From Methanobacteriota archaeon (lineage in GTDB: Archaea; Thermoplasmatota; Poseidoniia; Poseidoniales; Thalassarchaeaceae), in NCBI GenBank assembly GCA_002723045.1, contig PBNI01000019.1, positions 17,336 to 57,478 on the forward strand: a DNA stretch of 40,143 nucleotides, in the 5' to 3' direction. The translations under genes were made by a program, and so were the position numbers. Of the stretch, positions 963 to 27,000 are shown in pieces. The notes under the pieces are model-generated. The model worked only from the letters and a program-made list of their open reading frames with translations, had not been told where the DNA came from and made no database searches. Every line of letters starts with the position of its first letter. The stretch's first letter is position 1.

Positions 963-2684
963 CTACTCTTCTAGATCCTCTTCTCTTTCGTTGTATATCG
1001 AGAATAGAAAGAAACCCCCGACAGAAGCCGCTATTGCTAATGCGATTAAGGCTGGCAGGAGTGAGTCCCCCCCATCATCTTCTGCTGCAACCCAATTCAC
1101 ATTCTGACTGGACATTTGTCCTCCTCCGAAAGCAAACTCATCCACTAGTTGTGTAGGGGTTAGAATTCTGCAGGAGAGGGAATCTTCACCCAGAACCGAT
1201 ACTCTCCAACTGAACGAAATCGTCACTTGCTCCCCCGGTCCGATGATGGAATTGGGGAATGAGGGTGAGATTTGTGCAGTTGTATTGGTACTGACGTCCT
1301 CGCAATTGATTGCCAATGATGCTGCTGCTGAACCTGAATTCGAAATTACGGCATCGACATTCACAGAATCGCCGACTGAGGCTTCATTCAGCGCCCCATC
1401 TTCTCCACTAACGGAAAGACTGTCCCAAACCACCATCGGAGTTCCACTTTCCACCTTTACTTCAGAATCCCAAGTAAGTTCGAATTGACCCCCCCCATAG
1501 TGGCCTATTCCCGATTCCTCCGGATTCCATGCAGTTCTGTAGTCTGTAATGGTGACAATAGCCTGCTCACTCCAGATCTCTTCTTCCTCCCAAGTATTAT
1601 CTTCCGACCAAGCTATCTCGACCACTCTCTCCCTCCCACCATCTATGAAGGAAACTCCAATTTCGTTGCTGAAGTTTGAGTAACTGGGAAATTTGTGCAT
1701 CCCTGTGATCTCGTATGTGATGAACATTGCATCGAAGGAAAGCCTCTGACTCGATACTCTCCTCTCCCACTTGTCGGTTAATCCGCCTGAACCGGCCACA
1801 TCATCGCCCCAGATGATTGTAGAGTGTGCATTGGCCCTGACGTCATGGTCGTCAGTACTGTTTGTGAATTGCGAACCCCCTCCTAGGTGGATTTCTGCAT
1901 CATCGCTAGTCAATAGGATTGGTCCGACTCTATTCAGCAAAGAATCATTGATGTGGACATTGCTCGATGAGGAAATTTGACCTCCGAAGATAATTGAATT
2001 GGTGGAGACAAATTCACCCTCAGTCAAAATAGTAAATCCAGGAGGGCCATAAACCATCATATTTCGGAATTCAAACTCAGCTGCGTTTGTTGGATAAATA
2101 CAAGATGGACAATCAAAATCGCCTCCATTTGCTCTTTTTACTGATATGGAGCTGACCGACGGGGGATGGCACAGCGGCCCAACCAGATCAATCCATATTT
2201 CACCATCAGGAACATTTTCAATTTCTAACGAGTACTCTTGTCCCGACAAATCCTCAGAGTGATCCCCAAAATACGCTGTAACTCCATCAAATGTTGTTGG
2301 CTCAATCGCAGTCATAGTTACAAGGACAGTTGAGGAACTAGGCCATTCAATTTTGACTCCAGATCTATTTCCCTGGTCACAGTATCCGTAACCCACTAAT
2401 TCTCCAGGAGGGGCCGAGGAAATAAGACTCGAGTTGTATATGCCAAGAATTGAATTTTCATCGACAAAAATTTCTACCCCATCAGATATGGAGACCTCTG
2501 AATCGACAAAGTTCAGTATCCCTCCGTTTACTACTCTGACATTATGTGAGAGCGACATGTCATCAGACCATGTCATGTTTGACTCAATGATGATGTCATC
2601 CTCTTCAGCGACAACGCTGTTTGGGAACATTGCCACTGAAAATAATAGGACGAGGCACAACATTACAGGATTTCTTCTATTCAT
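963..2684 (-). CDS. Putative secreted/cell-surface protein with signal peptide and C-terminal transmembrane anchor
   Basis: ORF 963..2747. The likely start is the internal ATG (MNRRNPVMLCLVLLFSVAMFPNSVVAEED, a typical signal peptide). The C-terminus has a TM (LLPALIALAIAASVGGFFLFSIY) and an acidic tail. An Ig/CARDB-like segment (VDAVISNSGSAAASLAINCE...) precedes the anchor. Confidence 0.75.
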   Translation of the reverse strand: MNRRNPVMLCLVLLFSVAMFPNSVVAEEDDIIIESNMTWSDDMSLSHNVRVVNGGILNFVDSEVSISDGVEIFVDENSILGIYNSSLISSAPPGELVGYGYCDQGNRSGVKIEWPSSSTVLVTMTAIEPTTFDGVTAYFGDHSEDLSGQEYSLEIENVPDGEIWIDLVGPLCHPPSVSSISVKRANGGDFDCPSCIYPTNAAEFEFRNMMVYGPPGFTILTEGEFVSTNSIIFGGQISSSSNVHINDSLLNRVGPILLTSDDAEIHLGGGSQFTNSTDDHDVRANAHSTIIWGDDVAGSGGLTDKWERRVSSQRLSFDAMFITYEITGMHKFPSYSNFSNEIGVSFIDGGRERVVEIAWSEDNTWEEEEIWSEQAIVTITDYRTAWNPEESGIGHYGGGQFELTWDSEVKVESGTPMVVWDSLSVSGEDGALNEASVGDSVNVDAVISNSGSAAASLAINCEDVSTNTTAQISPSFPNSIIGPGEQVTISFSWRVSVLGEDSLSCRILTPTQLVDEFAFGGGQMSSQNVNWVAAEDDGGDSLLPALIALAIAASVGGFFLFSIYNEREEDLEE

Positions 2685-2802
2685 TGACAACCCGTACTGA
2701 AAGAGGGACATGAATATCACCCCTCTGGTCTCTATCTTTACACGCATTATTCACATCCGAAATAGTGCGAAGGTTCATCCTCCTAATTTCACTGCCACGG
2801 TT

Positions 2803-4858: not shown

Positions 4859-4884
4859 TTAAAACAAGCGTTTTGGTCGGCGCG

Positions 4885-7800
4885 ATGCTGAGTCATTGGC
4901 AAATAGGTCCGGTGGATGGGATGGAAGAAGAGAAAGAAGCCCCTCAAGACGTCCAATTCAACAACCTTGTAGCCCCTGTGTCAATAACGCTGGCACTACT
5001 TGGTTTGACTATCGTAGCCTCTTCTCTCGAAGGTAGAGAAGTTGACGGAGATTTCCTCTCCAAGGCAATCGTAATCTCTCTATCGGTACTAATTCCTGCC
5101 TGTATTGGCAGATCATCTTGGCTGATACCTCTTGATTCTGGAGTCCTGCGTGTCGGATCCATCACACTTGCAGTCTCTCTATTGGGGGTGATCGCAAATT
5201 CAGCAGACCCAGAAAACTTCAATCATTTGTTTGTCACAACATTCGTATTCGTTGGATTCGCTTCCGCGGTATTACACGAATCAGAACGATTTGAAGAGTC
5301 TGCAAATCTCCTTTCAATAGTTCTCGGCGCTCGTCTTGCAGCATTCTATTCAGGGGGCCTCATAATCGCTCAAAGTGACTCCCTCGCTGTTATTGACACA
5401 GTAAGGGAATCAATAGGGGCCGCATTCTTCTCATTCTGGCTCTCTTCAATATCACTCGGATTCCTTGTGATGGTTGGACTAAGGGGCACAGTCGAGAATA
5501 GAGGCAAGGGGGGCCTAATGTCAAACCTTCCAAACATCAGGGATAACCCAGAGGTGGGAATATACTCGTCCCTGGTCTTCGCTAGTTTCCTGATTCCACT
5601 CATCTGGATCGGACAAATTGACTCTCTCCAGGATTTCTCTCAACAGAGTCACATTGGAGTGGCTTGGGCATCATTCTCAGCCTTGGTCATCTTCATTCAT
5701 GCCTTTTTCAGAGCAGAGGGTTGGCACGTATTGGGTGCACTGCTGGCAGTGAACTGGATTCTTTACACCATTGGCCATATTCATGAGATTGGAAACGAAC
5801 TCCCGTCCTTATTCTCCGAGGACGGATTCGTTGGCTCATTCACCTGGTTCTTCCTATGGTTCTGGATGAATTTCTTTGCTCTCTTCTTTGCTTCCAGAGG
5901 GGTTTTCGGCGATGTAGCACCCAGAAGGGAGAGGAGCGGTTTCAGAGTCTGGTGGGACGGTAACTCCTACGCAGTGATGGTCTCTCTTGCCTTCCTGATA
6001 GCTCTAATCGTTAGAACCGCATGGAACGTAATACCAGCAATGAATGCGAACGGAACCGGGTTATGGGACATGACAGGTGGTTCTGACCCATGGTACATGA
6101 AGAGAGTAGTTGACTACGTTATTGCCGAGCGGAGTCATCTGATATTCGATCACGATAGGGCTTACCCTACTGGTGGCATTAATCCAAGGCCACCACTCTT
6201 CTCTTGGTCCCTGGCCTTGGGCGGTTTGTCCCTATCTTGGATCCTCGAGATACCGGCCGATCAAGCGGTCTGGTGGTCTATGGCTTCTCTTCCAGCAATC
6301 TATGGGGCACTCATAGTTCTTCCAATCGCAGGGATAGCCTCTCGCGCTCATAGTAAGAGGTCCGGCATTATTGCAGCTTGGCTTATCGCCCTAATGCCCG
6401 GACACATGAGCCGCTCTACATTCGCAATGTCTGATCACGACTCCTTTGCGATGCTTTTCCTGGCAATCGCATTCTATTACTGGATAAGGGCAATAGAGAA
6501 TATCGATCACAATAAACTCTTCAAGTCAACTAGTACAAACCCTCTGTACATCATTGCGGGCATGAGGGAGACGTGGAAGAGGAATCCTTCACTGATGGCT
6601 AATGCATCGATGTCCGGAATCGCATTCTCAATCATGGCTCTAGGGTGGAAAGGATTCGTATACGGCCCGGGAATCCTCTTCCTGGCTTACTCGTTCCAGG
6701 TTGCAATTAATATTTTCAAAGGCAGAGATAGCATTCAATTCACCTCTGCAGCACTTCAGATGATGCTAGTCGCAATTCTAGTACCGGCCCCATTCTACGC
6801 ATGGCCGGGTATGAACCTGCTTTTCGCACCCAGTGGGATGCAGCCCATGTTCTACATAATCGGGTTTACTTTCGCCATGGGGTGGGTGTCTAGCTCATTC
6901 AGGGACAAGCCATGGCTATTGGTAGTCCTTGGGGGTAGCGCATTATTCGGCTCCATCCTCGCTTTGCTATTCATACTCCAGGTTAGAGGGCTATTCAATG
7001 GGTGGGATATCCTTTTCACTGGCGGTTTCTACTTCTCCAAGAACAAGATCTTCGGAACTATCGGCGAGGCACAAGCCCCCGAGCGTGGAGTTCTTTTCGC
7101 ATCCTACGGGCCCATAGTGGCCTTAATCGCAATAGGTTGTGCATTCTTGCTATTGTGGAGGGGAAGCAGGAAGAACAAGTCGGAACTTACTCTTCTGGGT
7201 CTCTGGACCATTATCGCGACATACATGGCATGGTCAGCCGGTCGTTTCATCATCAACGCAACTCCTGCAATGGCGGTAGTAGGAGGTATCGGAATCTCCA
7301 TGCTATGGGGCTCTGCAAGTTTGCCATCTTTCACCAAGGTATGGAGGAACTCGGGCATTGGAACCCCAAGGACTCGTTTCAAGTCTCTTTGGCCCGCCTC
7401 CAAGGCCCGTCCAGGAGTCCCAGCCATGGTCATGGTTTTGCTTCTGATCACATCTCAACATGCAACTTACGGAATTGACGCTGGAATTCCAAGAGGGGAC
7501 AAATCCGCAAGCGAAATCGATCAGAGCCTATACGACATTGTTCCGGACATACTGAGGCAGGACTTGTTAGGCTTGTTTTCAGTCATGAATAGCGATGCTT
7601 ACGACCAGAGTGACTCTGGACTATGGTACATGGGCACTTTCGGCCCAAGTTTCAATTCCCAGGGATGGAATGAGGCATACGATTGGCTCTCACAGCAGGA
7701 TACCGAAACTCCATTCAGCGATCGTCCCGCCTTCGTTTCCTGGTGGGATTATGGTTTCCAGGCCCTTGCATCTGGACAGCACCCCACTGTTGCGGACAAC

Positions 7801-10800
7801 TTCCAATCTGGGATCCCGAACAGCGGAGCAATGCTGCTTTCGGGAGGTCAGGAAGATACACTTTCGTTATTCATCACTACCTTGGCGATGGGGGACAAGA
7901 GCATCAATGGCCAACTCGGTGAATCTTTCCTAAACGTCCTAGACGAGCACATGTCCCCAGAACAAGTCCAAGAGTTCGAAGCGATTACTTCCAATAACAA
8001 TAAGGAGTTTGTAAAAGACCGTTTGATGGCGGTCGTTGCTGAATATGGTGACGCTGAATTGCTCATGGGTAACCCCCTTGGGGCCGACGGCCTAACATGC
8101 GCTGAAGAAACCTGTTTGCATACCTATGTCGTATTGGTAAACGGGGAACAATTCGGCGAATCAACCACTAATTCATCCGAAGCAATGTCTCTCTTCGACC
8201 AGGCTCGCGGCTCCTCATCTTCCTTCGAATTAGCAGAATTCGATGACGCCAGTCACTACGACATGGCAGGATACAGATACACCAGAGACATCATTGATGA
8301 CTACGACGATCTCTCGACTGCCCTCCACAGAACCAACGCTAGATTCGGATTGGCTCGTGCCTTCCTGATTACTGCCTTCGCGCTCGATGATCTCGTACAG
8401 ATTTACGACGGTATCTCTTCGATTGACTCGTACGAGGTCTCAGATTATGAGGAGTCACATGGAAGTACAACTTCGAGGAATCATGAGATTCGCTACTTCG
8501 CGGTAGATAACCGCCTATATCCTCTCGGAGGCAAGTACTACCAGGATTATCAGTCATATCACAGGGGACAAACTACAGGAATCTTCCATGCCCCAACCCA
8601 TCTTTCTGGCCTCGATATCAACTCCTACATAACAACAACTTACGAAACAAACCAAGGCCCGATGTCCCCTGATGAGTTCCAAAGCAAGTACATGGAGGAT
8701 CTGAAGGCTCAGGCCTCCGGAGCATCTACGGGAGAGGATATGATCCAGATGACGGACATGGAATATCAGCATCTGGACAGTTTCTTCGATACGATGATTG
8801 CCAGGACATATGTCGGTTATGGGACCTCTACCTTGGGCCTCCCATCGATAAGTGGGCAGACAGGAGATGCCGACACCCCTTCTACTTGGATTCTGCCAAA
8901 CTCACTTACCGGGACTCCCGGGAGCTATCTGCAGGGAGCAATGGCACTTCCTGGAGCAATGATGAATCACTTTGTTCTATCAAACTGGTACGATCCGACA
9001 AACGGAACTTCCTGCGAAGAAATCCAGATAACAGGCTCTGCCTCAACAATAGTGGGTAACTCTCAATTGTCGGACGTCTCACTATATTCCGCTGATAGCC
9101 TTTCATCAGGTTGGTCACAGATTCAATCAGGAGGCCCCTGGAAGATGATCGAAGTCGAAGAGGGCGTAATTCCAGTGAACGCATTTACTAGCAATTATGA
9201 TCCCGAAGAAGAGACCCTCTCAATCAGCTCACCAGCTTCATCCTCTGCAAATGATACTGAATTCGTTTTAACCGGAAAGGTAGACAGGTACTGCGGCTCA
9301 ATTTATGACTCCAATAGGAATGTAAAGGTTCTGAAATACTACAGTGGCGCATCACTTCAGGGCACCGTCACACTGGAAGGAGTAGGACCGGTCCCTAATG
9401 CAAGGATTCTGATCGAGAGGGATGCATTCAGCGGAGATGAGTCCGCAGACGAGAACGGCAATGTTGTAGACAATGACTCCCGGACATACTGGATACCCAT
9501 TGGGTCAACCCAAGCAGACGAGAATGGCCACTTCTCTTTCTCAGCCCCTGCTGGAAAGATACGAGTCTCGGCCTTTACTGGGGATCCAGACTTGGATTCC
9601 GCCCGAACATCCCTGCTATCAGGATCGGCCAACCTAATGTCAGAGCTATTCTCTGAGACATCTCAGAACCGTGCAGTAAACCCAGTAACTGGAATTCTAG
9701 CGAACGTCTACGGTTCAACATGGCTCTCTGAGACAATAGTGAACATTTCTGGTTCTGATGGCCACAGCAATGGTGAATCAGTTATACAGGCACCAATATC
9801 GGTTTCTCCGTCAACTGCTTCGGGCATACTTTCTTGGTCGGGAGAACTTGACTTCGACGGAGAACCCGTCCTTTCTGCCAATGTAATCCTCACTCCCTCT
9901 TCAGGAGAAGTAGAAATCCAACCATATGAGGTCATGACTTCTGATGGGAGTATGATAGGAGAGGATTTGAGGTTCAGCGGAACAGGGGAGGTAACATTCC
10001 TAGGCGAGGGGTCAATGGAGAGTATGGGAGCAGTGTCCGTTCAAGACTTCACTGGCACCCATACACAGGCTGTATTCGATAATCACAGTATTACTGGAGA
10101 GGGTCAATTCTCTGGAAAGGGCATCATTGATGGGGCACTATCTGGTGATTTCCCCGATTGCACTGGAGACTTAGTCCCCGAAGGTCATGACGCGTGCATT
10201 AACGTGGAAGGGCAATATTTCTTGGAAGGTATAGCAAACGGTTCTGGAAAGTTCACATCTGAGGGAGTCAGTGAATTTACCAGGGAACTATCTCAGGCCA
10301 CGTTCATCGGTTCGGGCAATTTCGCCACATCTACTTCAGATGGACTTTCCACATTTGGGACAATCAACGGGACTGGAATTTTCTCGGGTCACGGATCGTT
10401 TAGTGGGCCTATGGTCAGACCAGGCTCCTTCCACATCGTCGACGCACTACCCGGGGAGTATGTTGTTTCAGTGGACTTTGGAACTGGGGATCCAGTGGAG
10501 TTATCGGAACCATTTGTGATTCCCCTGTCTTCCTCAGAGATTCAGACACCGGTAACTATCACTGGAGGTGCGGTCAAGGGCACTGTATCGATTTTCACCG
10601 GTAGGCCATTGTCTAGCGAGGTTTCGGTTTTCTCAATCAATGGCTCCAGTGATGATTCTGTTGTGGAGTGCCAGGGTGTCATCACTCAACCATGCTTCGT
10701 CACTCCCGACGAAAGTGGATCTTTCGAAGTCGGTCCAATAGTGCCCGGCTCCTACCTAGCAGAGGTAGATATTGATGACGACGGCTTCCCCGAGATATCC

Positions 10801-13800
10801 CAGGCATTCACATTCGAATCCGGATTAGTGACTCTGGTTACCTTCCCTTCAGAAGTTCCCCAAACATCCGACATCACATTCACCCTCTCTGATGACGGAG
10901 CCAGTGTCGATAATCTCCAACTGCAATTCATCCCGGAGGATCTTTCCAGAAACTCTGTCACAGCATTGTTCGACAATGCAACGAAGACTTACCATGCAGA
11001 ATTGAATCCAGGTAATTGGATACTCAATTACACCCTAAGCGATCAGAAGCAACTGTGGCAGCGCGTCTCAATCGGAGATGTTGATTTAACCGATTCTTTC
11101 GAGTTCTTGGTAAGCCAAGTTGTAACTGGTACTGTGATAGACAAACCACTCAAGAGCGACGACGAGACTCCTGATCCAACGTCAAGAGTAACAAACCAGG
11201 AGGTATTGTTCCAATGGGAGGGCTTCACCCTCGAATCAATTACAGACTCATTTGGGGAGTTCAGCGTCATCCTACCCCAAGGGGCATTTATCCATGCCAC
11301 CGTGGAGAGAATGGTTGGGGCAGGTGGATTCTTATCGAACGGTACCAGTTTCCAAGTGACGGATTCGATGGAAAATATCACAATCGAACTCACAGATTCA
11401 ACCATGGTTCTAGGAGAGGTAAGCCTCAACCGAGAAGGGAACACGTACAACCAAGGGTTCTCCGGATGGACTCCAGTTTTTGCTAAAGCAAGCAACTTGG
11501 ATGGGGTAACTGACGCCGTTTGGAGGGAGGAAGTGGATGATCTCGGAAGATTCGACATGCTATTGCCCCTTGGAAACTGGTCGTTTACACTGGAAGCAGG
11601 TAATGAAATGTCAGCCAATGCGGTAGTAAAGGAAGTCAACACCTCATCAGAGCCCATGGTCGAACTCCTGGTTCTTCCCACCAATAGTACCGTGGAGATA
11701 GATTTCTTCATCGACCACGAAGGGGATAACAACGCATCCAATGGCACCCCCGTTTCTTATCCATTCGAGATAAAGCCCCTATCGCCCAATGGTGCTGGTT
11801 ACACTGTATCTGGAGAAGGATCCGAATGGACTCAGACGGGGTTGGCGGAAATATCTCTTGAACCCGGCAGGTATCGAATAGTTGTCGAGAGGGCCAACTC
11901 ATCTGCTGACGAACCATTCGATACACTATATGACACAAATGAGATCTTTGAAGTTGAGATAGGATCCACTTCTACCGTAGGGCGTTCTGTAGGATTCGAG
12001 CCAAGATGGTTGGTTAACATAACGCTGAGGAATGAAAGCGGTCAATTGCTCGAAAACCACGAAGTCAAACTTGAGAACGTCGAAAATGGTTGGATCCAGA
12101 CGTTCACAACCAACGAAGATGGAATGTTGGTTGAGTACATTCAGGAGGGGGATTGGATCGTTATCGTAGACGACTTCGAGACCAACCCAGGGGTGTACGA
12201 GGGATTGCGAAGATCGATTTCAGTCTCCCAATCATCAGCAGTTTCCAGATTGAACTTCCAGACAGCCGAACTTGCCTCTGTGACCGTGACCCTACAATCA
12301 ACTTCCGATGTTGCATCGCCCGAGTTGATCGATCTCAAGATTTCTTCACAGGAGGGCCTTGGATCATTTGTTAGTTCGGTAGGAGGTTTCGAACAACCAC
12401 TTGAGATTAGACTCGTACCCGGGTCATGGAATGTTGAGGTTAACCAGACCAACCAAGATGGAGTCAGGAATCTATTGGAGAACACTTCGCTGGTTGAATC
12501 CGGTGTGACTGTGGGCACCAATCACCAAGTTTTCCTCACCGTGGAGAAACTTGTCAGCCTCAGCGGGAAGGTATTCTGGGATCTGGATGATGACGCCTCT
12601 CCAGGTTTCTCAGAGGGACTTTCCAATGCTACTGTGAACATTACCGGAGACTCGGAATCGCCAATTCATCAATTAGTAACGGACAACGACGGAGTCTGGT
12701 CCACATTCCTACCTGTGCAAAGCTCATGGAATATCACTGTGGAGAGAGACGGCTTCGGCACTCAGACATCTCTAGTCGAAATCGGAGAAACCTCAGTGAT
12801 CGAGAATATCGAGATCTCGGCCGGAGAAGTTGAAATCTCCGGGAGCATATCATATCTTGACCAGTCCTGCATTTCTAGCGGCGAGTGGCAAGTTGAGATG
12901 ATTCCATCGCATGGAATCTCAAGAGAACGAGTCACAGTATCTGGAAATCCCCTTGGTGAGTGGTCTGTCATGATCCAGCCAGGCAGTTGGGTGGCAATGG
13001 CAACATCAACATCGGAGGCACCTGATTGCATAGGCCTGATCTCCATCGAGCCTCTGGAAGTGGGGGTGGATGGCGGTTCGGTAGAATCAGAACTCACAGT
13101 TGGAGGGACTCTCAGGCTTCAGACCAGTTGGTTGGCCTTCGATTGCAGTAACCATGATCTTACTGAGATTGATGATTATGACCTCGTCATAGAATACGGC
13201 CAAATATCATGGTCCGAGGAACTGGGAAGCGATGGCATCCTGACTCTATTGCTTCTACCGGGTACGGTGCAGACATCCAGCAGCTTCGAATTGAACGAGG
13301 GCGTTCGAAACGTATCCTACTCCGGCGGAAAGGGAATTTCCATCAGGGCCGGACAGGTTAGCCCGCTCAATACCCTTAGCATCGATAGGGTCTCCAAGCA
13401 GAGCGTCAATGTTACAGTGCAAGGGGACGATAGATTGGAAGTCGAAGAGATCGATACCACTTGCACTAACGACGATGACGGTGACGGGGTAATTAATGGC
13501 GAAGACGCATTCCCTGACGACTCTACCGAAACCTCAGACAATGACAATGATGGAATTGGTGACAATCGAGATGCCGACGACGACAACGACGGCTTCAACG
13601 ACGAAGACGACGAATTCCCTCTGGGACAAGGTCTGTCCTCAAACACAGCCGTTGGATGCAAATACCATAATGCAGCGTTCACAATCTCAGTTGAGTACGA
13701 CGGACACAACTCATTCGACGAATACACAGTCGTTGGAACTGTTCCCGGTGCCGATGGACTGGATTGGAATGTACAATTCCAGAATTCATCTGGAGAATGG

Positions 13801-14808
13801 GTGGATTCAACAAAATTCGACTTGGGTTTGACTGATTCAGACCTAACCGAACAAATTAGCGTCCGAGTAGTCCCAGCCAATGTCGGAGTCGCACATCACT
13901 TCCCAGATGGCCACTTGGTCCTGATCAAGATGTCAACCGATCAAGGATACTCTACTCAGGTAGAATTGAGAGTTGATGTGCCAGAATACAACGGAATCGA
14001 ACTCAATGAACCCGAAAACCTCTACTTTGATGGGGAGGAAACCGCCGTGACTATCGAGATTCCATTCAAGAACACCGGCAATTCAGACGAGTTGTTCTAC
14101 TTCGAATTCGATAGTTCAGAGTGGTGGCAATTTGCCGGTCCGACGACTCAGCCCATGTCTCCATTCTCCGACGGAACCGCCACATTCACCCTAGTTCGAC
14201 CATCTGAACCAGAACTCCCTTCTCCTTACACCGAAGAGATCACATTCACAGTTTCTGATCAGGACAACAATACATACTCGGGCTCAACTGTGATGAAGAT
14301 GGACTCCCCAGTTCTCGCAATAGTTGGAGGTACTGCTAGGATCCTCGGAGGAAATGGATTCGCTTCCTTTGGCCAAATAGAGAGCTATTCGGTAAATATC
14401 TCGAATAACGGCAATGTGGATGCAGAGAACGTCAATTTACTGGCTACTCTATGCTCCGACATTGCCTGTGAAAACGAGTTAGGTGTCAACTCCACATCCA
14501 GCGGATCAGTCTCAGCCATGAGCGAATCGACATTCTACCTGACTATGGACTACACCCAGTTTTCTGAGTCCAAGAAGTACTGGATAGTCTTCTCAATTGA
14601 AGGTGAATCGATGGATGAACAGTCAGAGTCTTGCACATCACCGAGGTCAGACGGCAAGGCTTCCTGTGTATTCGAGGCTCAGCTATGGACCAGCTCCGAG
14701 GAGAATGACAATCTGAAGTACCTAGCATACGCATTCCTGATAATGCTGGTTGCAGCTCTACTGTACTTTACTAGAAGGCCAGGAAGACGAGTCAGCGCCC
14801 CGTTCTAA
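4885..14808 (+). CDS. Giant STT3/AglB-type oligosaccharyltransferase fused to long extracellular multidomain region (Ig/CarboxypepD-reg-like repeats, Gly-rich repeat, DxDxDG Ca-binding loops) with C-terminal TM
   Basis: The N-terminal part is polytopic. It has an STT3 first-loop acidic motif GGSDPWYMKRVVDY, SRSTFAMSDHDSFAMLF, and the STT3 signature WWDYG (7741-7755, FVSWWDYGFQALASGQHPTVADNFQSG). Downstream beta-sandwich-type repeats include QGTVTLEGVGPVPNARILIERD, GKVFWDLDDDASPGFSEGLSNATVNITGD and DDDGDGVINGEDAFPDD. The C-terminal TM is YLAYAFLIMLVAALLYFTRRPGRR. TTG 4873 and ATG 4921 are alternative starts. Confidence 0.9.
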   Translation: MLSHWQIGPVDGMEEEKEAPQDVQFNNLVAPVSITLALLGLTIVASSLEGREVDGDFLSKAIVISLSVLIPACIGRSSWLIPLDSGVLRVGSITLAVSLLGVIANSADPENFNHLFVTTFVFVGFASAVLHESERFEESANLLSIVLGARLAAFYSGGLIIAQSDSLAVIDTVRESIGAAFFSFWLSSISLGFLVMVGLRGTVENRGKGGLMSNLPNIRDNPEVGIYSSLVFASFLIPLIWIGQIDSLQDFSQQSHIGVAWASFSALVIFIHAFFRAEGWHVLGALLAVNWILYTIGHIHEIGNELPSLFSEDGFVGSFTWFFLWFWMNFFALFFASRGVFGDVAPRRERSGFRVWWDGNSYAVMVSLAFLIALIVRTAWNVIPAMNANGTGLWDMTGGSDPWYMKRVVDYVIAERSHLIFDHDRAYPTGGINPRPPLFSWSLALGGLSLSWILEIPADQAVWWSMASLPAIYGALIVLPIAGIASRAHSKRSGIIAAWLIALMPGHMSRSTFAMSDHDSFAMLFLAIAFYYWIRAIENIDHNKLFKSTSTNPLYIIAGMRETWKRNPSLMANASMSGIAFSIMALGWKGFVYGPGILFLAYSFQVAINIFKGRDSIQFTSAALQMMLVAILVPAPFYAWPGMNLLFAPSGMQPMFYIIGFTFAMGWVSSSFRDKPWLLVVLGGSALFGSILALLFILQVRGLFNGWDILFTGGFYFSKNKIFGTIGEAQAPERGVLFASYGPIVALIAIGCAFLLLWRGSRKNKSELTLLGLWTIIATYMAWSAGRFIINATPAMAVVGGIGISMLWGSASLPSFTKVWRNSGIGTPRTRFKSLWPASKARPGVPAMVMVLLLITSQHATYGIDAGIPRGDKSASEIDQSLYDIVPDILRQDLLGLFSVMNSDAYDQSDSGLWYMGTFGPSFNSQGWNEAYDWLSQQDTETPFSDRPAFVSWWDYGFQALASGQHPTVADNFQSGIPNSGAMLLSGGQEDTLSLFITTLAMGDKSINGQLGESFLNVLDEHMSPEQVQEFEAITSNNNKEFVKDRLMAVVAEYGDAELLMGNPLGADGLTCAEETCLHTYVVLVNGEQFGESTTNSSEAMSLFDQARGSSSSFELAEFDDASHYDMAGYRYTRDIIDDYDDLSTALHRTNARFGLARAFLITAFALDDLVQIYDGISSIDSYEVSDYEESHGSTTSRNHEIRYFAVDNRLYPLGGKYYQDYQSYHRGQTTGIFHAPTHLSGLDINSYITTTYETNQGPMSPDEFQSKYMEDLKAQASGASTGEDMIQMTDMEYQHLDSFFDTMIARTYVGYGTSTLGLPSISGQTGDADTPSTWILPNSLTGTPGSYLQGAMALPGAMMNHFVLSNWYDPTNGTSCEEIQITGSASTIVGNSQLSDVSLYSADSLSSGWSQIQSGGPWKMIEVEEGVIPVNAFTSNYDPEEETLSISSPASSSANDTEFVLTGKVDRYCGSIYDSNRNVKVLKYYSGASLQGTVTLEGVGPVPNARILIERDAFSGDESADENGNVVDNDSRTYWIPIGSTQADENGHFSFSAPAGKIRVSAFTGDPDLDSARTSLLSGSANLMSELFSETSQNRAVNPVTGILANVYGSTWLSETIVNISGSDGHSNGESVIQAPISVSPSTASGILSWSGELDFDGEPVLSANVILTPSSGEVEIQPYEVMTSDGSMIGEDLRFSGTGEVTFLGEGSMESMGAVSVQDFTGTHTQAVFDNHSITGEGQFSGKGIIDGALSGDFPDCTGDLVPEGHDACINVEGQYFLEGIANGSGKFTSEGVSEFTRELSQATFIGSGNFATSTSDGLSTFGTINGTGIFSGHGSFSGPMVRPGSFHIVDALPGEYVVSVDFGTGDPVELSEPFVIPLSSSEIQTPVTITGGAVKGTVSIFTGRPLSSEVSVFSINGSSDDSVVECQGVITQPCFVTPDESGSFEVGPIVPGSYLAEVDIDDDGFPEISQAFTFESGLVTLVTFPSEVPQTSDITFTLSDDGASVDNLQLQFIPEDLSRNSVTALFDNATKTYHAELNPGNWILNYTLSDQKQLWQRVSIGDVDLTDSFEFLVSQVVTGTVIDKPLKSDDETPDPTSRVTNQEVLFQWEGFTLESITDSFGEFSVILPQGAFIHATVERMVGAGGFLSNGTSFQVTDSMENITIELTDSTMVLGEVSLNREGNTYNQGFSGWTPVFAKASNLDGVTDAVWREEVDDLGRFDMLLPLGNWSFTLEAGNEMSANAVVKEVNTSSEPMVELLVLPTNSTVEIDFFIDHEGDNNASNGTPVSYPFEIKPLSPNGAGYTVSGEGSEWTQTGLAEISLEPGRYRIVVERANSSADEPFDTLYDTNEIFEVEIGSTSTVGRSVGFEPRWLVNITLRNESGQLLENHEVKLENVENGWIQTFTTNEDGMLVEYIQEGDWIVIVDDFETNPGVYEGLRRSISVSQSSAVSRLNFQTAELASVTVTLQSTSDVASPELIDLKISSQEGLGSFVSSVGGFEQPLEIRLVPGSWNVEVNQTNQDGVRNLLENTSLVESGVTVGTNHQVFLTVEKLVSLSGKVFWDLDDDASPGFSEGLSNATVNITGDSESPIHQLVTDNDGVWSTFLPVQSSWNITVERDGFGTQTSLVEIGETSVIENIEISAGEVEISGSISYLDQSCISSGEWQVEMIPSHGISRERVTVSGNPLGEWSVMIQPGSWVAMATSTSEAPDCIGLISIEPLEVGVDGGSVESELTVGGTLRLQTSWLAFDCSNHDLTEIDDYDLVIEYGQISWSEELGSDGILTLLLLPGTVQTSSSFELNEGVRNVSYSGGKGISIRAGQVSPLNTLSIDRVSKQSVNVTVQGDDRLEVEEIDTTCTNDDDGDGVINGEDAFPDDSTETSDNDNDGIGDNRDADDDNDGFNDEDDEFPLGQGLSSNTAVGCKYHNAAFTISVEYDGHNSFDEYTVVGTVPGADGLDWNVQFQNSSGEWVDSTKFDLGLTDSDLTEQISVRVVPANVGVAHHFPDGHLVLIKMSTDQGYSTQVELRVDVPEYNGIELNEPENLYFDGEETAVTIEIPFKNTGNSDELFYFEFDSSEWWQFAGPTTQPMSPFSDGTATFTLVRPSEPELPSPYTEEITFTVSDQDNNTYSGSTVMKMDSPVLAIVGGTARILGGNGFASFGQIESYSVNISNNGNVDAENVNLLATLCSDIACENELGVNSTSSGSVSAMSESTFYLTMDYTQFSESKKYWIVFSIEGESMDEQSESCTSPRSDGKASCVFEAQLWTSSEENDNLKYLAYAFLIMLVAALLYFTRRPGRRVSAPF

Positions 14809-14836
14809 TACTAAATGCCACCCAAGTGTGAACTAC

Positions 14837-16069
14837 ATGCGTGGAACCTCGCGTCTCGAGTTGATGCCTGAGCCCGATGAACCCAGTCTACTTACCGCCG
14901 TAGACAGCAATGCACCCGGATATCCGGGAGAGTCTTACGGAATCAGTGATGAAGAGGCTAGGAGGCTTAGGTCTCCGATGGGCCCAATAATGAGGTTCCT
15001 ATGGCCTTGGGGGGCCGTCGGATTCTCCGCAGTAGTGGCCTCTATCTTACTTCTTTATCCTTCAATATACTCACTCATAGGAGAGGTTCTCGATTCTGAG
15101 TGGGCATTCGAGGATAGCGGCATTAGGGAGTTACAGGAATCTGGAAACCTGGGTGAAGGAGTCAGAGTTTGTATGGTTGACACCGGAATAGATGTCTCCC
15201 ACCCGGACCTATCGCACCTAACATTATCCGGATTCCGTGATTTCTATAGCGAAAAAGACTCACCTGTCAGGGACATTGGAACAAATAGCCATGGCACTTT
15301 GATGGCCGGTCTTCTGGTTGCGAATGGCTCGTTCACCGGAGCCGCTCCAGGGGTTTCTCTCTCTGTTGCCATTTCTCTAGGGCCAGATGGAAAGTCTGCC
15401 AACGAGAGAATGGTCTCACAAGCGATTAGGTGGTGCCGAATTTCTCAGGATTCGGATATAATTTCACTAAGCCTGGGAACTGCTCCCGGGTCCAGCTTCT
15501 CAGCAACATCCGATACCCTTGATGCCGTCAGAGAGGCTTTGGATGACGGCATTTTTGTTATTGCAGCAGCTGGAAATATCGATCCAAAACAGAACATTTC
15601 CGACGTCTCTTCCCCTGCTAGCCTATCGGGAGTGATCGCCGTTGGGGCACATGATAGAAATGGAGATCCGTGGATCGATAGTGCCGAAGGTGCACAATAC
15701 GATCCTGAAACAGGTGAGGAAAGAATATTCCCTAACCAGAAACCAGAGATCAGTGCTCCCGGCGTCGATCTATGGTCTTGCAGAGACAGTGACAGGGACC
15801 CCCCATACGCATTCTCAACCGGAACCAGCGACTCTACCGTGTTGGTTACTGGAGCCCTCGCATTGATCCTCTCGCTATACCAAGACCAGATAGAGGGCGA
15901 GAACGGAATAATAGACCACCATGAAATGGACTTAGTCAAGGTCGCGCTTGCAAACTCGGCAAGAACAGACCCGAACCAATCCGATCACGACTCGAAGAAA
16001 GGATATGGCCTCCTAGATGCTCAAGAATGGTCTAGGCAAGTAGAAATCGAATTCGGAATAAACCAATAA
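14837..16069 (+). CDS. Subtilisin-like (S8) serine protease with N-terminal membrane anchor
   Basis: Catalytic motifs: Asp VCMVDTGIDVSHPDL, His TNSHGTLMAGLL, oxyanion Asn VIAAAGNID, Ser STGTSDSTVLVTGALAL. TM near the N-terminus: FLWPWGAVGFSAVVASILLLYPSIY. In-frame ATG 14837 (MRGTSRLELMPEPDEP) is preferred over the ORF-track start at 14750, which overlaps the upstream gene. Confidence 0.88.
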   Translation: MRGTSRLELMPEPDEPSLLTAVDSNAPGYPGESYGISDEEARRLRSPMGPIMRFLWPWGAVGFSAVVASILLLYPSIYSLIGEVLDSEWAFEDSGIRELQESGNLGEGVRVCMVDTGIDVSHPDLSHLTLSGFRDFYSEKDSPVRDIGTNSHGTLMAGLLVANGSFTGAAPGVSLSVAISLGPDGKSANERMVSQAIRWCRISQDSDIISLSLGTAPGSSFSATSDTLDAVREALDDGIFVIAAAGNIDPKQNISDVSSPASLSGVIAVGAHDRNGDPWIDSAEGAQYDPETGEERIFPNQKPEISAPGVDLWSCRDSDRDPPYAFSTGTSDSTVLVTGALALILSLYQDQIEGENGIIDHHEMDLVKVALANSARTDPNQSDHDSKKGYGLLDAQEWSRQVEIEFGINQ

Positions 16070-16144: not shown

Positions 16145-19100
16145 ATGGCGCGGGAAGAAAAATTGAGGTCATTCTCATTAACAGGGCTATTCTTGTTGAG
16201 CATCTTACTTTCATTGGCCTTACCTGCAGGTACTGTATCAGCATCAAATGAGACTACCACGGGTACAATTACCGGTACTGAGACTTGGGCCGGAGTACAC
16301 ACTCTGACCGGAGATGTCACAATTGCCCCCGGTGCTAAATTGATCATCAATCCAGGGGCGACCATTGAGTTCCCTAACGGCACTCACCTAGACGTGCGAG
16401 GAAGCCTTTGTGCCGGAGTTTCTTCGTGTGGGGCTTCTTCAAACGCAGGTCCTGCGATGCAAATAACCCTTAGATGGAGTGAACCCGCAAATTCGAGTGC
16501 AATTGGTGAATGCTATGGAATGAGTTCCGGCAATCAAGAAATTTGGATCGATGATCCTTCATGTAGCGAGGGAGTACTAATGAGGAGCTCAATCGATCTT
16601 TCTGAAACCGGCCTCAGATATGTCACATTCGATAGTGCCTGGGGGATTCCACAATATGTCTCAGCAGTAGGAGAATTCCGTTACGGGGCACTAGTCCTAG
16701 ACGGGGCCAGTCCGACACTTACCGAACTTTCTTTCAATCAGATTAACACCTCCAGCGTCCTGACAACCAACCTTGCCCAACCCACCTTCAATGGTGGCGA
16801 ATTCGTCGTAGGGGTCGATGCGAGCACGAGTATCGTCGGGGCAGCACTACAGATTTACTCTTCAGGATCCTCAGTTAGCCCATTCGCACTGTCCGATATT
16901 TCTCTCACCGGGACCAACAACGGATGCGGCAATAGGGATGGGGGGAGGCACACAATCTGGGCCGAGGACTCATTTATCGAGATAGATAACGCCGAAATCT
17001 CTTCAGGAGACTTTGGAATCGGACTTTACACATCCGCAGGGAGTGTTACAAATACCCAAATCAATGTCAACTGCAACGGTATTGACCTAAATGGGAAGAA
17101 AGCGGTTGGAGGCACATCTTTCGGCTTCGATATCTCGGATAATGAAATCACTACGGTCGACGGAGCGGGGGTTTTTGCAGCAGCCGGTGCACTGGTGACT
17201 TTGATAGACAACGACATTGGAGGGGCAGCATCTGGTTCTGGAATAGCCGTTTACAATAGCGAGGCCCATATCCATGAAAATGAAATCGGACCAATAGGGG
17301 GGTACTTTGGTTTGTGGCTGGGCGGCTCCTATGACGTAGTTGCCGAGAACAACTCTATTTTCGACACTACCTTAACTCCAGTGGTTGCTGGAATGTACTC
17401 ATATGCCATCCAAGCAGCTTCTAGGCTATATTTGGCAAACAACTCAATCTCCTATGACGGCACTGGTACTTGTGGCAGTGAAACTAATTGGGGGGGCGAG
17501 TTTTCTTGTCCGGTATTGCATGCATATGTGACGGGGGTAACCATGTATGACAACATCATTACTGCTGGAGGTACGGCCGATGGGATCAGAGCAGTTGGAT
17601 CACTGTTGGATATTCAGCGGAACTCATTCGATGTGCAAAAGACCGGTGCCGTGATTAAGAATTATGACAGTGGATATGCAGAATCACAGCAATTCGGATC
17701 ACTAGCCTACTTCTCTGAAAACGACTGGAACCAAGCCGAGACTGTATACAACGTGACAAAAAGCTCGGTCACTGCCCAATCAGAGTACATACCCTCCCCT
17801 CCCAGCGGGGAATTCCCCGTCCGACTATCGTGGCCAGATCAAGAGGCATGGCCAGACAATGAATTTCAGGGGGCGATTATCCCTACTCCAGTAAAGGACT
17901 GCAACAATTGCCAGAACATGACGCCGAGGAACTTCCCATTAGGAGTTAGCATGGACAACAACTCAACAGTGTTCACATTCGCAGATTTGACGAACTTGGA
18001 CCTGTCTAAGGTGAAGATTGCGACACAACCAACACACTTCGCAGTACAGGTTAGCAGGGCCGAACTAGTCAGATTCCAGACACTAATCGGTGGTGAAAAG
18101 GTAAGTGATGCATTGGTCATAGTGGAGGATGCATTAGGTAATGACCTGTATCGTATCAATACTGGCGGTGATGGCTTTACTCCTTGGGTGGCCCTCCCAT
18201 CCAACTTCCATCTCGACTTCAGGGGACTAGGGGGAGGGGATAACCCAGATGGTTTTGCAGATGATGAGTACGAGGACTCTTGTTCGGACGGCATAGATAA
18301 CGATGGCGATCTCACCATCGATACCGCCGATTCCAGTTGCGATTATTCAGCAGGAACCAGGGAACTGTCGCTTTACAGATATACTGCCTACAGATTTGGA
18401 TATGGGTACTTCTCAGGCCAATTCACCCTTGAGGAGAACTCGCTGGAGGAGACCGCACACCTAGAGAACGAAGCCCCAACAGTGAAAGTAACCGAGAATG
18501 ACGGGCACTCGTTCAGAAGGGTCGTCAATATCACTGGAAGCGCTCATGATGGGACTTTGGCGAACAGCTACCTTACCGACGAGAGAGCCCAATGGGACCA
18601 AGGGGGTTATGTTCATGCCGTTCAAGTAAGAAACCCATTCACCGGTTCATGGGAGGATGCCGAATACGCAATTGATACAAGTGGTGCAGATGAGGGGGAG
18701 GTCACACGATTCAACAGGCCATTCAGTTCTTGGTACTACAATATCGATATGACTGGTCTTGCAGGGGAAGGCGATTACACATTCGAATTCAGGGCATTTG
18801 ATGGGATAGACTACAGCCCTGTAGTTTCGCGAACAATCAAACTCAATACCCAAGCTCCTAGCATATTCGTAACTACTCCGAGCTCATTCTCATCCCACGA
18901 TGAAGGATCGGTAGTTTTCGATGGCTATTCCCAGGACCCCTATGGCTGTCCAGACAATTGTAACACTGACATCGGCCTAGTATACATGCAGATTTCAGGT
19001 CCAAATTACCAAGTTACCAGTCCAGTTGAAACAAATGAAGATGGAACTTGGGGCTGGGAATGGGACTTCAGCACCCGACCCAGGGAATTGACCACATACA

Positions 19101-20464
19101 CCTTCACAATTTGGGCATCGGATTCAGATTTCTGCAATGGCGATGTGGACGAGTGCCAGCCAGTAATACTGACACTTACTATCGACAACAGAAATAGCCA
19201 ACCTACAATTAGTGTCAATCAGCCATTTTCAGGAACTCGGATATCCACTTCCTTGGACACTATCCTTACCGGAGTGGCTAGGGACTTTGACGGAGGGGTT
19301 ACGAGGGTCGATCTGGAAGTAAAGGACGTATCAAATGACTACGTGTCGGTTTTCGAAACGAGCACCAGTGAATTTTCTGAAGATGGAATATGGGAGATAG
19401 AGTGGGATACAACACAACTTCGCCATGACGCAGAATATCTGCTGCGCTTCCGATCTTATGACGGGATTGACTACAGTAGTTGGACCGAAGTAACAATCGT
19501 GGCCGATAACCCTCCAAATGCAGGCAACAATCAACCTGAATTCGACTCATCTGGATGGCAAAGTGAAATCATCCTTTATTGTGACTCTGAATCCAACTCT
19601 GTTGACAAATGCACCACAGCAGAGATAGACTTGAAGGAATATTTCTCCGACGCAGACAACGACATCCAATTCATTTCTGTTTACAATGACACATCAATCG
19701 ACTCAGACGACAGGCACCCTCTTGTCGTAGGCGTCGGAACAGATGGAATTGCTCGATACGACCCTGCTGACATGTTGTTCTTCGACGACAACATGGAGTC
19801 TTGGACTCTAAACAACGTGATCTTCATTGCAACCGATGCATGGGATTCACGGGTCAACTCAAACCCAGTCACCTTCAGAATCGTACCTCTTCAATTCATG
19901 ATTCAGGAGCCTGAGCAGTCTTGGGTCGAAGAAGACGAAATGGCAATATATTCCGGCATCGGACTTCCTGGTAAGCAAGTTTCCGTTTTGATTGGTGGCA
20001 ATCCAGTCAACAACACAATCGTCTCTGAAGATGGAACATGGGAACTCGGAATTCCCGCTTCTAGGATAAAGGGGGACTCATCAATACCAGAGTTCACCTA
20101 TGCTGGACAAACCACAGAAGTTAGCGCAATTGGCAAGGGAGAGCCAATCACAGCCTCAACTAATTGGTTGGCAGTTGTAGGGGCTTCTATAGTCGCCATA
20201 CTAGCTCTGGCCGCCCTTGCTTACTTCACGGGTTTCATTGGAATTGAGATCGAGGAAGAAGATGAAGAGTACAAAACCCCGGCACAAATCCCTGATGGCT
20301 ACGGTGACGGGGGAGAGAGAGGCACACCAGAGGGAGAATCCAGAGAGTGGTGGAGTCCTGAAGATAAGGGAGAGAACACCCTAGAGAGGTATGATGACCA
20401 CCCAGGTTGGCTATGGGATGCATCTTCTGAGGAATGGGTCCCAGATCCGGATTTCCAAGGATAA
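16145..20464 (+). CDS. Large cell-surface protein: right-handed beta-helix-like region, Ig-like domains, C-terminal TM and cytoplasmic tryptophan-rich tail
   Basis: Signal peptide LFLLSILLSLALPAGTVSAS. Parallel beta-helix-type repeats (IEIDNAEISSGDFGIGLYTS..., FDISDNEITTVDGAGVFAAAGALVTLIDNDIGG, IHENEIGPIGGYFGLWLGG). A CSDGIDNDGDLTIDTADSSC motif. TM WLAVVGASIVAILALAALAYFTGFIGI, with tail HPGWLWDASSEEWVPDPDFQG. Confidence 0.8.
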   Translation: MAREEKLRSFSLTGLFLLSILLSLALPAGTVSASNETTTGTITGTETWAGVHTLTGDVTIAPGAKLIINPGATIEFPNGTHLDVRGSLCAGVSSCGASSNAGPAMQITLRWSEPANSSAIGECYGMSSGNQEIWIDDPSCSEGVLMRSSIDLSETGLRYVTFDSAWGIPQYVSAVGEFRYGALVLDGASPTLTELSFNQINTSSVLTTNLAQPTFNGGEFVVGVDASTSIVGAALQIYSSGSSVSPFALSDISLTGTNNGCGNRDGGRHTIWAEDSFIEIDNAEISSGDFGIGLYTSAGSVTNTQINVNCNGIDLNGKKAVGGTSFGFDISDNEITTVDGAGVFAAAGALVTLIDNDIGGAASGSGIAVYNSEAHIHENEIGPIGGYFGLWLGGSYDVVAENNSIFDTTLTPVVAGMYSYAIQAASRLYLANNSISYDGTGTCGSETNWGGEFSCPVLHAYVTGVTMYDNIITAGGTADGIRAVGSLLDIQRNSFDVQKTGAVIKNYDSGYAESQQFGSLAYFSENDWNQAETVYNVTKSSVTAQSEYIPSPPSGEFPVRLSWPDQEAWPDNEFQGAIIPTPVKDCNNCQNMTPRNFPLGVSMDNNSTVFTFADLTNLDLSKVKIATQPTHFAVQVSRAELVRFQTLIGGEKVSDALVIVEDALGNDLYRINTGGDGFTPWVALPSNFHLDFRGLGGGDNPDGFADDEYEDSCSDGIDNDGDLTIDTADSSCDYSAGTRELSLYRYTAYRFGYGYFSGQFTLEENSLEETAHLENEAPTVKVTENDGHSFRRVVNITGSAHDGTLANSYLTDERAQWDQGGYVHAVQVRNPFTGSWEDAEYAIDTSGADEGEVTRFNRPFSSWYYNIDMTGLAGEGDYTFEFRAFDGIDYSPVVSRTIKLNTQAPSIFVTTPSSFSSHDEGSVVFDGYSQDPYGCPDNCNTDIGLVYMQISGPNYQVTSPVETNEDGTWGWEWDFSTRPRELTTYTFTIWASDSDFCNGDVDECQPVILTLTIDNRNSQPTISVNQPFSGTRISTSLDTILTGVARDFDGGVTRVDLEVKDVSNDYVSVFETSTSEFSEDGIWEIEWDTTQLRHDAEYLLRFRSYDGIDYSSWTEVTIVADNPPNAGNNQPEFDSSGWQSEIILYCDSESNSVDKCTTAEIDLKEYFSDADNDIQFISVYNDTSIDSDDRHPLVVGVGTDGIARYDPADMLFFDDNMESWTLNNVIFIATDAWDSRVNSNPVTFRIVPLQFMIQEPEQSWVEEDEMAIYSGIGLPGKQVSVLIGGNPVNNTIVSEDGTWELGIPASRIKGDSSIPEFTYAGQTTEVSAIGKGEPITASTNWLAVVGASIVAILALAALAYFTGFIGIEIEEEDEEYKTPAQIPDGYGDGGERGTPEGESREWWSPEDKGENTLERYDDHPGWLWDASSEEWVPDPDFQG

Positions 20465-23856: not shown

Positions 23857-24028
23857 CAAATAATACGCGGTTCCAGACGACCTTTCAACAAATCCATGGA
23901 AAATAGACAATTACTGCCCTTTTCAAACATCAAACATCATCCTATGCCCTACTAACAGCATATGTCCGAACGACGCTCCATCACCATGATAAATCTCTGA
24001 ACCCGGGATTTTGCATAGAGGTGGGCGG

Positions 24029-27000
24029 ATGCGTAGGAAGCAAACAGCTTTACTAGTTGCAATGTTGATTTTTTCTAGTCTAGCTTTCATCTCCCAGACT
24101 CGTCCACAATCGCCAGTATCCTCCACGGACCCTAATTTGGCAGAAGGTACAGAATCCCCAGTTACCGACCAAGATGGCGACTTAATGCCCGATCTATTTG
24201 AGGTGATTTTTGGAGAACCCGTAGATATTGAGACAGCAACATTCCAGGGCACCATATCCGGCCTCGATCCATCAGATTCTACTGATAATTCAACTGACCA
24301 TGACAGAGACGGGTTAACCGCTTTGCAGGAATACTGCTGGCCTTATACCTTGGATAATTGCTTTGAAGAACGTAATACCCTTACAGGAAAATCGCCAGAG
24401 GAAAGCGAATCTGGATTGCGTGAGTATCTGGACCCAAGATCTTCAGATACCGATGGTGATGGTTTGCCAGATGGATATGAGGTACACATGTGCACCCTGG
24501 GGGGGCTATACAAGAAAGACCCAAACGACCCCTTGAACCCAAACAATTTCTGGGAATGTCGATATTTCGATCCTCTCGACCCCAGTGATATCAACATCGA
24601 TTTTGACAGGTGTGAGGCTGACTTCAGTTGGGGTTGTGGGGACGGATTCGATTTCAATAGCGATGGAGAGATTGACCTTGGAGAAAGATTCACGAACTCG
24701 GAGGAATACTGGCTGGGGGCCCCCGATGATTGGATTACTGAGAGGGATGGGCTCTGGTGCTGGGGCTCGATTCACGGGCTCACTGAAGACTCATGCCAGA
24801 CTCAGTTCGAGAGGCCAACAGGTGAATCCGGTTGGATGGGCTCTGACCCCAGATTCTCGGACTCGGACTACTTCTTCTGGGATGAAATAACCCCTGCTAC
24901 ACTAGATGTTTTGGGAGATGGAATTCCGGATGGCTGGGAAGCCCAATATGGACTCGATCCTCTAAACTCCAGCGATGCGATAATTGACAGTGATTCTGAT
25001 GGATGGGACAAAGACGAGGATGGTTTCATTACGGCGGATGTAACAATCGGGACATCTCAGTGGGGCGAGGCATTCAGTAATTTCGAAGAGTACTCGGTTG
25101 ACTTCGATGAAAACTCGGGAGTAATGCCGGGAGTTAGGGGGATTGAGATTTCTCCCGACTCCGATACTCTCATCAATTTTGACCATTCAACCGCAATAAG
25201 GCTAGTTGACTCCGCCGTACATAGCATAATTCCAGACCAACCAAGAGAGAGGTTGTTGGTAGGAAGCAAATATGGGATTACAGCATTAGATCCATTCAGA
25301 GGAATCTCTTCGTCATTTGAATTTCCTCCAGGAGTAGAACTGTACACAATGGAGAGGAATTCTGTAGGGAACATAGATTTCCTAATGTTGGGATCAAACC
25401 TAGGACTTCATACCTTAACTCTTGAAAACGGGCTACCAGTAATGGACACCCTAACTACCCATGAACTAGGTGAAGCATCTGTATTATTCCAGTTCGTCTC
25501 AGACTCTTTTGACCCAGGGGTACTGATTATGGGCAAGGATGGCGTCTGGAGGACAACATTCTCCGAGTCTGAACAATCGCTATCCACCTCTGAGATTATT
25601 TTTGTAGAGTCACTCTCATCAATGCTGAGTGATTCTAACGCAACCGCAACCTCTGCAGGACACGCCAAGATTTTTGGAAGAACCCCAATTCTACTAATAG
25701 GGTCCGATTTCGGACTAATCGCCTGGAATTCTTCCGATGGCTCTGACAACAATGGCATGCCATGGTGGGTCTTCACAAGAAATAACGCCGACGAATTTGT
25801 TAGCCCGGATATTCTGGATACCACTAAGACAGCCACTGTCAACTCCATAATGGTAGAATCTTCTGAACAAGGCTCAGACGACGTGTGGTTGGGGATGGGA
25901 GGGGGGCTGCATCTAATCACAATGGACTTATTTATTTCTCAGCCCAGGGAGTCAATCGACAATCAGAGGATGCTCAATCTAGGAGGACTTCTAACTGGCG
26001 CTAATGATGTTCACTCCATACTTCCGCTCGAAGGGATGATAATTCTGGGCTCTTCAGACGGAACTTGGTGCCTAGAAGGGAGCTCGGATGGGATTCTTGA
26101 TATCCGCCAGAATCAGACAGATATACCGGGCCTTGTTACCTCACTTGCTTCTCTGGAGAGGGACGGTCAGATTTGGGTTTTCGCTGGCGTTTCACCGGGG
26201 AGATTCATGAACATAGCCCCCATGAATCCAAATTCCCATGATTCTGATCTTGATGGAATCCCTGATGGTTGGGAGTTTGCATACGGGCTCGATCCCACTG
26301 ACCCATTCGATGCATCTAGGGATAATGATGCTGATGGGGTTTCAATCGGAGGAGGAAGCGGCCATGGGTTTGACAGATTGTGGACAAACTTGGAAGAGTA
26401 TAGGTTCGTAACCCCCTCTGAATTTGGACAAAATGGAACCGATCCTAGAGTAGCGGACTCAGATGGAGACGGACTTACTGATGGAGAGGAGTATTGGGGT
26501 TGGTTCATCGATCAAACATCATTCGATTGCTTCTACCTTAATCAGCAGTACCTGTGTGATGCCGGCATAGGCACATCTGCAGAGGAAGTACATCTCGGTG
26601 GATGGACTGGAACAGGCTCCAGTGGCGGCAGCGATCTTCCTACCGATCCGACAAACCCCGACTCAGATGGGGATGGAATGCCCGATGGATGGGAAATCAA
26701 ACATCGTCGTTGGATTGGCGACATCTATACAGGAGGGAATGAATGGACATTGGATCCCAATAACCCAGAAGATGCTTCTGGAGATGCTGATGGAGATGGG
26801 TTATCTAATCTATGTGAGTATGAGTGGGAAAGACTACTGGATAGGTCAATTTCAACTGGGATAATATCACATGGTGAAACTTCTGCTTCAGTCCAGAAAT
26901 GGGTCCCGACAGACCCAAATTCTGTAGATTCAGACTCTGACTCACTTCCCGATGGTTGGGAAGCTAGATATTCATGCAACTGGCCATCTTCGAATTCAGG

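Follow-up and report, generated by a model that had tools for sequence, protein, structure and literature searches.

To our knowledge, characterised oligosaccharyltransferases are either smaller than about 1,000 aa or built as multi-subunit complexes. The motifs of the archaeal enzyme AglB have been defined as GxDP in EL1, DXD in EL2, TIXE and WWDYG (PMC8342417), and the forms reported here are variants of these. A second system with which the locus can be compared is eukaryotic NOMO, which sits at a translocon and consists of prealbumin-like domains strung together ahead of a C-terminal anchor (PMC11169918, PMC11186639). Long STT3 proteins are easily lost from surveys; in the review of one STT3 phylogeny, a referee criticised the removal of overlong sequences (PMC4973528). 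We found no description of a giant STT3 in the open-access literature searched, which is no proof of absence, and the giant anchored-arm architecture of this known enzyme is real, conserved and apparently undescribed in that literature.

A continuous giant gene in both Poseidoniales families

The window (the whole 40,143-nucleotide stretch of DNA analysed) comes from an 875-kb metagenome bin that is 55% complete and in which a single STT3 copy was detected. A first-pass annotation of this DNA had described one uninterrupted frame running from STT3 into a long arm, and this description held, with the forward-strand frame open from 4873 to 14808 (3,311 codons) and the orthologs collinear with it. 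ATG 4921 was taken as the likeliest start: in the relatives L036 and L040 an upstream stop is followed by no in-frame ATG before the matching codon, and L039 begins there too. Residue numbers throughout are those of P0001, in which residue 1 corresponds to ATG 4885. The features of the locus are as follows.

4921..14808, +, giant STT3/AglB gene of about 3,295 aa, likely start ATG 4921, stop codon ending at 14808 (other possible upstream starts: ATG 4885, TTG 4873)
4921..5940, +, N-terminal membrane domain of about 10 helices, aa 13-352 (hydropathy and alignment A6)
5941..7374, +, STT3 transmembrane catalytic domain, aa 353-830 (Pfam, NCBIfam and PDB AglB matches)
6076..6093, +, EL1 motif GGSDPW with the catalytic Asp, aa 398-403, invariant in 34 of 34 orthologs
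6433..6441, +, EL2 DXD motif, DHD (motif check over orthologs)
7057..7068, +, EL5 TIXE motif, TIGE (as defined in PMC8342417)
7375..9321, +, soluble AglB core region, aa 831-1479
7741..7755, +, WWDYG sequon-binding motif, aa 953-957, invariant in 34 of 34 orthologs
9322..10164, +, first beta-sandwich unit, next to the core, and Gly-rich segment, aa 1480-1760
10165..14694, +, distal arm of divergent tandem beta-sandwich (carboxypeptidase-regulatory/transthyretin-like) units, aa 1761-3270 (Pfam and repeat homology)
12613..12801, +, CarboxypepD_reg domain above the Pfam cut-off, aa 2577-2639
13441..13617, +, Asp-rich TSP3-like calcium-loop stretch, aa 2853-2911 (weak NCBIfam match, missing in many relatives)
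14713..14769, +, C-terminal membrane anchor, aa 3277-3295 (hydropathy), followed by the basic tail RRPGRRVSAPF
14750-16069, +, S8 subtilase gene directly 3' of the giant STT3, present at nearly every Poseidoniales locus with downstream flank
16145-20464, +, secreted beta-helix/Big_7 protein of 1,439 aa, third in the conserved gene row in both families

Exactly one STT3 match was observed in 54 of the 60 relatives (17 genera, both Poseidoniales families), and about 40 of these 54 carried a collinear open STT3 frame of more than 3,000 aa. Nine named public records hold the giant gene, including Marine Group II MED-G35, a Candidatus Thalassarchaeaceae bin and the isolate AG-457-A01 (L040); eight are approximately full length and one (L037) is cut by a contig end. 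The shorter STT3 frames that we examined were mostly explained by contig ends, N runs and ambiguous bases. A split gene in G037 (1,603 and 1,646 aa) was rejected as such, since a 15-base N run causes the break, and the short frames of G014 and G005 had indels scattered over several unrelated places.

The incomplete state of the source bin and the shorter frames of some few relatives could be read as signs of a chimeric assembly or a frame artefact that joins two genes, a reading to which we give virtually no credence. The same frame occurs in independent assemblies, the isolate AG-457-A01 among them; the short cases examined came down to contig ends, the N run or, for two bins, scattered indels; and the flanks are conserved on either side of STT3. 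Relatives consistently splitting the gene near 9.35 kb had been named by the first-pass annotation as one observation that would overturn the fusion, and no such split was found among the relatives examined. The search for the same fusion in related genomes, also proposed there, recovered frames of about 3,120-3,335 aa in both Poseidoniales (Marine Group II) families, and as these are kept in a fixed gene order the fusion is not an assembly artefact; at the DNA level the artefact is refuted.

This gene order, PurD, STT3, S8 protease and beta-helix protein, was observed at nearly all loci bearing flanks in both families. The S8 subtilase is possibly co-transcribed with STT3; its likely start lies at ~14837, and a signal peptide was not evident there. 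Sequons (NxS/T) were not enriched in the beta-helix/Big_7 protein, with 13 seen and 13.9 expected. Elsewhere in the window, 24011-29740 (+) encodes a secreted 1,909-aa TSP3-repeat protein, matched in the closest named relatives with 80-96% identity over the part compared. A 594-aa protein with a signal-like N-terminus, a C-terminal membrane anchor and no Pfam family is encoded at 963-2747 (-), and the 5' end of its gene overlaps a CDP-archaeol synthase frame on the opposite strand.

Catalytic region and N-terminal membrane domain

The Pfam STT3 model (PF02516) matched aa 400-801 with 41.4 bits against a cut-off of 24.5, and the structures of A. fulgidus AglB in the PDB were matched by sequence. 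TIGR04154 (archaeo_STT3, archaeosortase-associated) also matched over aa 364-987 (E 7.5e-48; model positions 2-571 of 831), with a score of 163.5 bits that does not reach the curated cut-off of 450, so the protein is not counted as a member of that family. The STT3/AglB catalytic region that the first-pass annotation had recognised, with GGSDPW and WWDYG, was thus confirmed by a profile above its cut-off and by two motifs without exception among the orthologs, and DHD and TI/VxE were present in the commonest ortholog variants listed. By profile cut-off and motifs the protein is an archaeal STT3/AglB oligosaccharyltransferase, and on the same grounds it is predicted to transfer glycans. The soluble core contains a lineage-variable insert around aa 1310-1480. 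Two giant STT3s of a single family (L119 and L120, from G165 and G150; 1,861-1,896 aa) had a low STT3 score, and WWDY, WWDW or WWDF was not found in either.

Ahead of the catalytic region lies a membrane domain that the first-pass annotation had overlooked and for which sequence searches returned no Pfam or PDB relative. It was observed in 63 sampled genomes, all of them Poseidoniales, and in none of the 180 other sampled genomes, a set that includes two Poseidoniales-class bins, and it is fused to STT3 wherever the contig allows. A few residues are invariant (G136, G246, E266, Y282, W309, F314; A6 numbering), and dN/dS between close orthologs was 0.06-0.12. HHalign led us to reject the idea that it arose by duplication of the STT3 membrane module.

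The arm across Thermoplasmatota

The arm comprises aa 1480-3270 (about 1,800 aa). Its best conserved part is the first unit with the Gly-rich segment (aa 1480-1760). Here aa 1480-1600 are about 50% identical across the families (measured over aa 1501-1600), similar to the catalytic region; conservation peaks beside the core and falls outwards. Internal repeats were detected by HHalign between aa 1901-2400 and aa 2401-2800 (E 1.7e-14; nothing with the reversed control), and the units of the window protein are degenerate. Alignment coverage was close to 1.0 over almost the entire arm across both families, with few length changes, and was lowered at aa 2801-2900. A second membrane anchor had been placed at about 14.72-14.78 kb, and hydropathy located it at 14713-14769; the C-terminal hydrophobic stretch is retained in the full-length orthologs examined and varies in sequence. 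That the arm is bounded by membrane segments at both sides is thereby supported as a sequence feature, and the membrane topology of the giant STT3 is predicted on this basis.

Our survey of STT3 lengths, which covers Thermoplasmatota, placed the two Poseidoniales families (3,120-3,335 aa) at the upper end, followed by the other family of the same class (2,337-2,374 aa) and by many other Thermoplasmatota families with frames of 1,850-2,750 aa, single-contig genomes included. A second set within the phylum has short STT3 frames of 1,160-1,430 aa. Using HHalign, the Poseidoniales arm aligned with the arms of outgroup giants at E 1.2e-63, over essentially its whole length, and at 4.4e-44, while reversed profiles gave nothing and unrelated CarboxypepD_reg proteins of related genomes gave E 4e-6 or worse. 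Because the outgroup arms align, the reversed profiles do not and the unrelated proteins do so weakly, we regard the sequences as homologous as arms throughout the phylum. One protein that served as a control, L173 (G076:C112), is about 2,900 aa long with 15 CarboxypepD_reg domains.

Well-preserved members of different families have 7-11 units at nearly matching offsets from WWDYG, a fixed layout, and the short forms carry 1-5 similar units directly after the core. The first-pass annotation had begun its extracellular modules at about 9.35 kb. Beta-sandwich sequence starts at about 9.32 kb, but foreign sequence does not begin there, since the first unit of the arm has its counterpart in the first unit of the short STT3s. 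As the arms align end to end phylum-wide and the short forms carry 1-5 units, the arm appears as an elongated anchored unit array; judged from these alignments, it is a lengthened, membrane-returning version of the array that already follows the AglB core and not a recent adhesin fusion. On the STT3 tree the long and short states require two changes, and with the root unknown gain and loss are not separable.

Sequons had been noted throughout the arm, and counting bore this out, with 29 in the window protein against 18.5 +/- 3.8 after shuffling (1.6-fold). Pooled over 34 orthologs there were 1,405 arm sequons against 601 expected (2.3-fold), a figure that describes the set and carries no probability because orthologs are not independent, while the membrane part had 146 against 110 expected (1.3-fold). 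Sites at aa 1620, 1828, 2286 and 2967 were kept in 32-33 of the 34 orthologs. Given this richness in sequons the arm itself is probably glycosylated, and the enzyme that carries it may be what glycosylates it. The first-pass annotation had suggested a built-in substrate, an S-layer scaffold or a cargo presenter as possible roles of the arm, and of these three the sequon enrichment bears on the first alone.

A profile of 13 outgroup giants (A3) had as its best solved match NOMO2 of the eukaryotic BOS complex (E 1.9e-30), and a profile of arm units matched NOMO (9c7v) with 103 bits (E 5e-29). A control profile built from units of unrelated CarboxypepD_reg proteins also had NOMO2 as its best match (85 bits, 3.3e-23), and no NOMO match was obtained with single arm sequences, so orthology to NOMO was rejected as a specific relationship. 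The Pfam NOMO models scored 41-47 bits in two of four arms and 0-37 bits in controls, too weak a difference for use. Since control proteins match NOMO too, we treat the likeness as resemblance and not membership. The Poseidoniales arm profile found no PDB relative at E<0.2. AlphaFold2 models of aa 13-1205 and aa 1480-2675, built with nine close orthologs, had mean pLDDT of 33 and 39, respectively; both models were set aside, and with confidence this low they establish no fold for the arm or the N-terminal domain.

Possible roles of the arm and comparison with known systems

The reading that we tentatively favour, with rather less than even confidence, makes the arm of this giant single-chain AglB/STT3 a permanent scaffold outside the cytoplasm, next to the catalytic site. 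The membrane catalytic domain and soluble core would transfer a lipid-linked glycan to N-X-S/T sites on the outside of the membrane. In Thermoplasmatota the AglB core is followed by a unit array, and in the giant this array would have lengthened into the long arm, its far end returning to the membrane and its first units probably packing on the core, as their conservation suggests. Such an arm may tether the enzyme where proteins are exported and may hold or shape emerging acceptor chains, its covalent fusion substituting for the separate lumenal subunits of eukaryotic translocon-oligosaccharyltransferase assemblies. Against this stands the finding that short STT3 forms of the same phylum manage without the arm.

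On another reading the arm would be mainly a built-in, abundant surface glycoprotein, with the enzyme glycosylating its own arm to form a coat in lineages lacking an S-layer. Both the 2.3-fold pooled excess and the several almost invariant sites agree with this, as does the heavy N-glycosylation of Thermoplasmatales, which are without a paracrystalline S-layer (PMC12448462). An oligosaccharyltransferase is also among the genes enriched during activity of an MGIIb genus (PMC9723583); this Marine Group II gene, enriched in metatranscriptomes with genus O1 active and filed there under lipid metabolism, may be the giant STT3 gene. The literature searched yielded nothing on a Poseidoniales S-layer or on the abundance of the giant STT3. 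We nevertheless think a coat unlikely, as conservation is best beside the catalytic core and not in the outer part, and a single enzyme copy would be an odd route to a coat. Rather improbable, too, is a precursor from which a protease frees the arm, to be displayed on the surface or secreted, the fusion merely ensuring co-production. The S8 gene conserved 3' of STT3 would supply a candidate protease, and the culture-filtrate proteome of Picrophilus torridus contains an STT3 subunit, PTO0786, but that proteome is also rich in cytosolic proteins according to its authors (PMC8345856), no cleavage site was identified in the chain, and the S8 protein is the one lacking an evident signal peptide.

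A further reading would make the arm an adhesin whose attachment to the enzyme is incidental. The types of module in the arm (CarboxypepD_reg, SdrD_B, SpaA, CARDB) are frequent in surface adhesins, and 'adhesin-like' was the label given in the first-pass annotation. As a functional label it finds no support here. Repeat number and sequence do not vary between close relatives in the manner by which tandem-repeat adhesins are recognised; the arm is instead collinear, with few indels and with unit positions fixed across families. Its dN/dS between close orthologs (0.06-0.11, against 0.025-0.03 for the membrane catalytic domain) is low and indicates purifying selection, and the arm belongs to a phylum-wide family, single copy and retained beside the enzyme. 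We therefore hold an adhesin to be highly improbable.

One of the most abundant archaeal groups in the ocean and many of its relatives keep a single-chain oligosaccharyltransferase of 2,000-3,300 aa with a conserved arm on the outside, to which the Marine Group II form adds an orphan membrane domain. This raises the question of whether such an enzyme might bring along a scaffold of its own for handling substrates. A. fulgidus AglB (3waj, 5gmy, 7e9s; PMC8342417) is alike in having a motif-bearing membrane domain followed by a soluble core. It is 875 aa long, whereas the giant has about 3,295 aa: its core is followed by a long anchored unit array, and about ten further helices form an additional N-terminal domain. 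The AglB motifs DK/MI and DGGK were not located in the giant STT3, the region after WWDYG having been inspected by eye. Short Thermoplasmatota STT3s (1,160-1,430 aa; among L129-L142) have in common with it the catalytic region and 1-5 like units, but lack the long arm and the C-terminal anchor. Surface proteins of the CarboxypepD_reg, SdrD_B and SpaA kinds share a domain superfamily with the arm, which unlike them is enzyme-fused, co-inherited and fixed in layout.

The arm is also like NOMO (9c7v), in which about a dozen prealbumin-like (carboxypeptidase-regulatory-like) domains and one C-terminal anchor are found near the translocon. In eukaryotes NOMO is the lumenal member of the BOS complex, which belongs to the multipass translocon, and its partners there are nicalin and TMEM147. 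Tandem units with a C-terminal anchor, as in NOMO, are present in the outgroup giant STT3s, with the units degenerate in the window protein. It is conceivable, although we consider it doubtful, that the phylum has evolved a one-chain counterpart of the translocon-associated oligosaccharyltransferase, in which a catalytic subunit and an anchored NOMO-like scaffold would act on emerging chains and to which Marine Group II would have added the extra membrane module. NOMO is a separate eukaryotic subunit that is not fused to STT3, whereas the arm and the enzyme are one chain.
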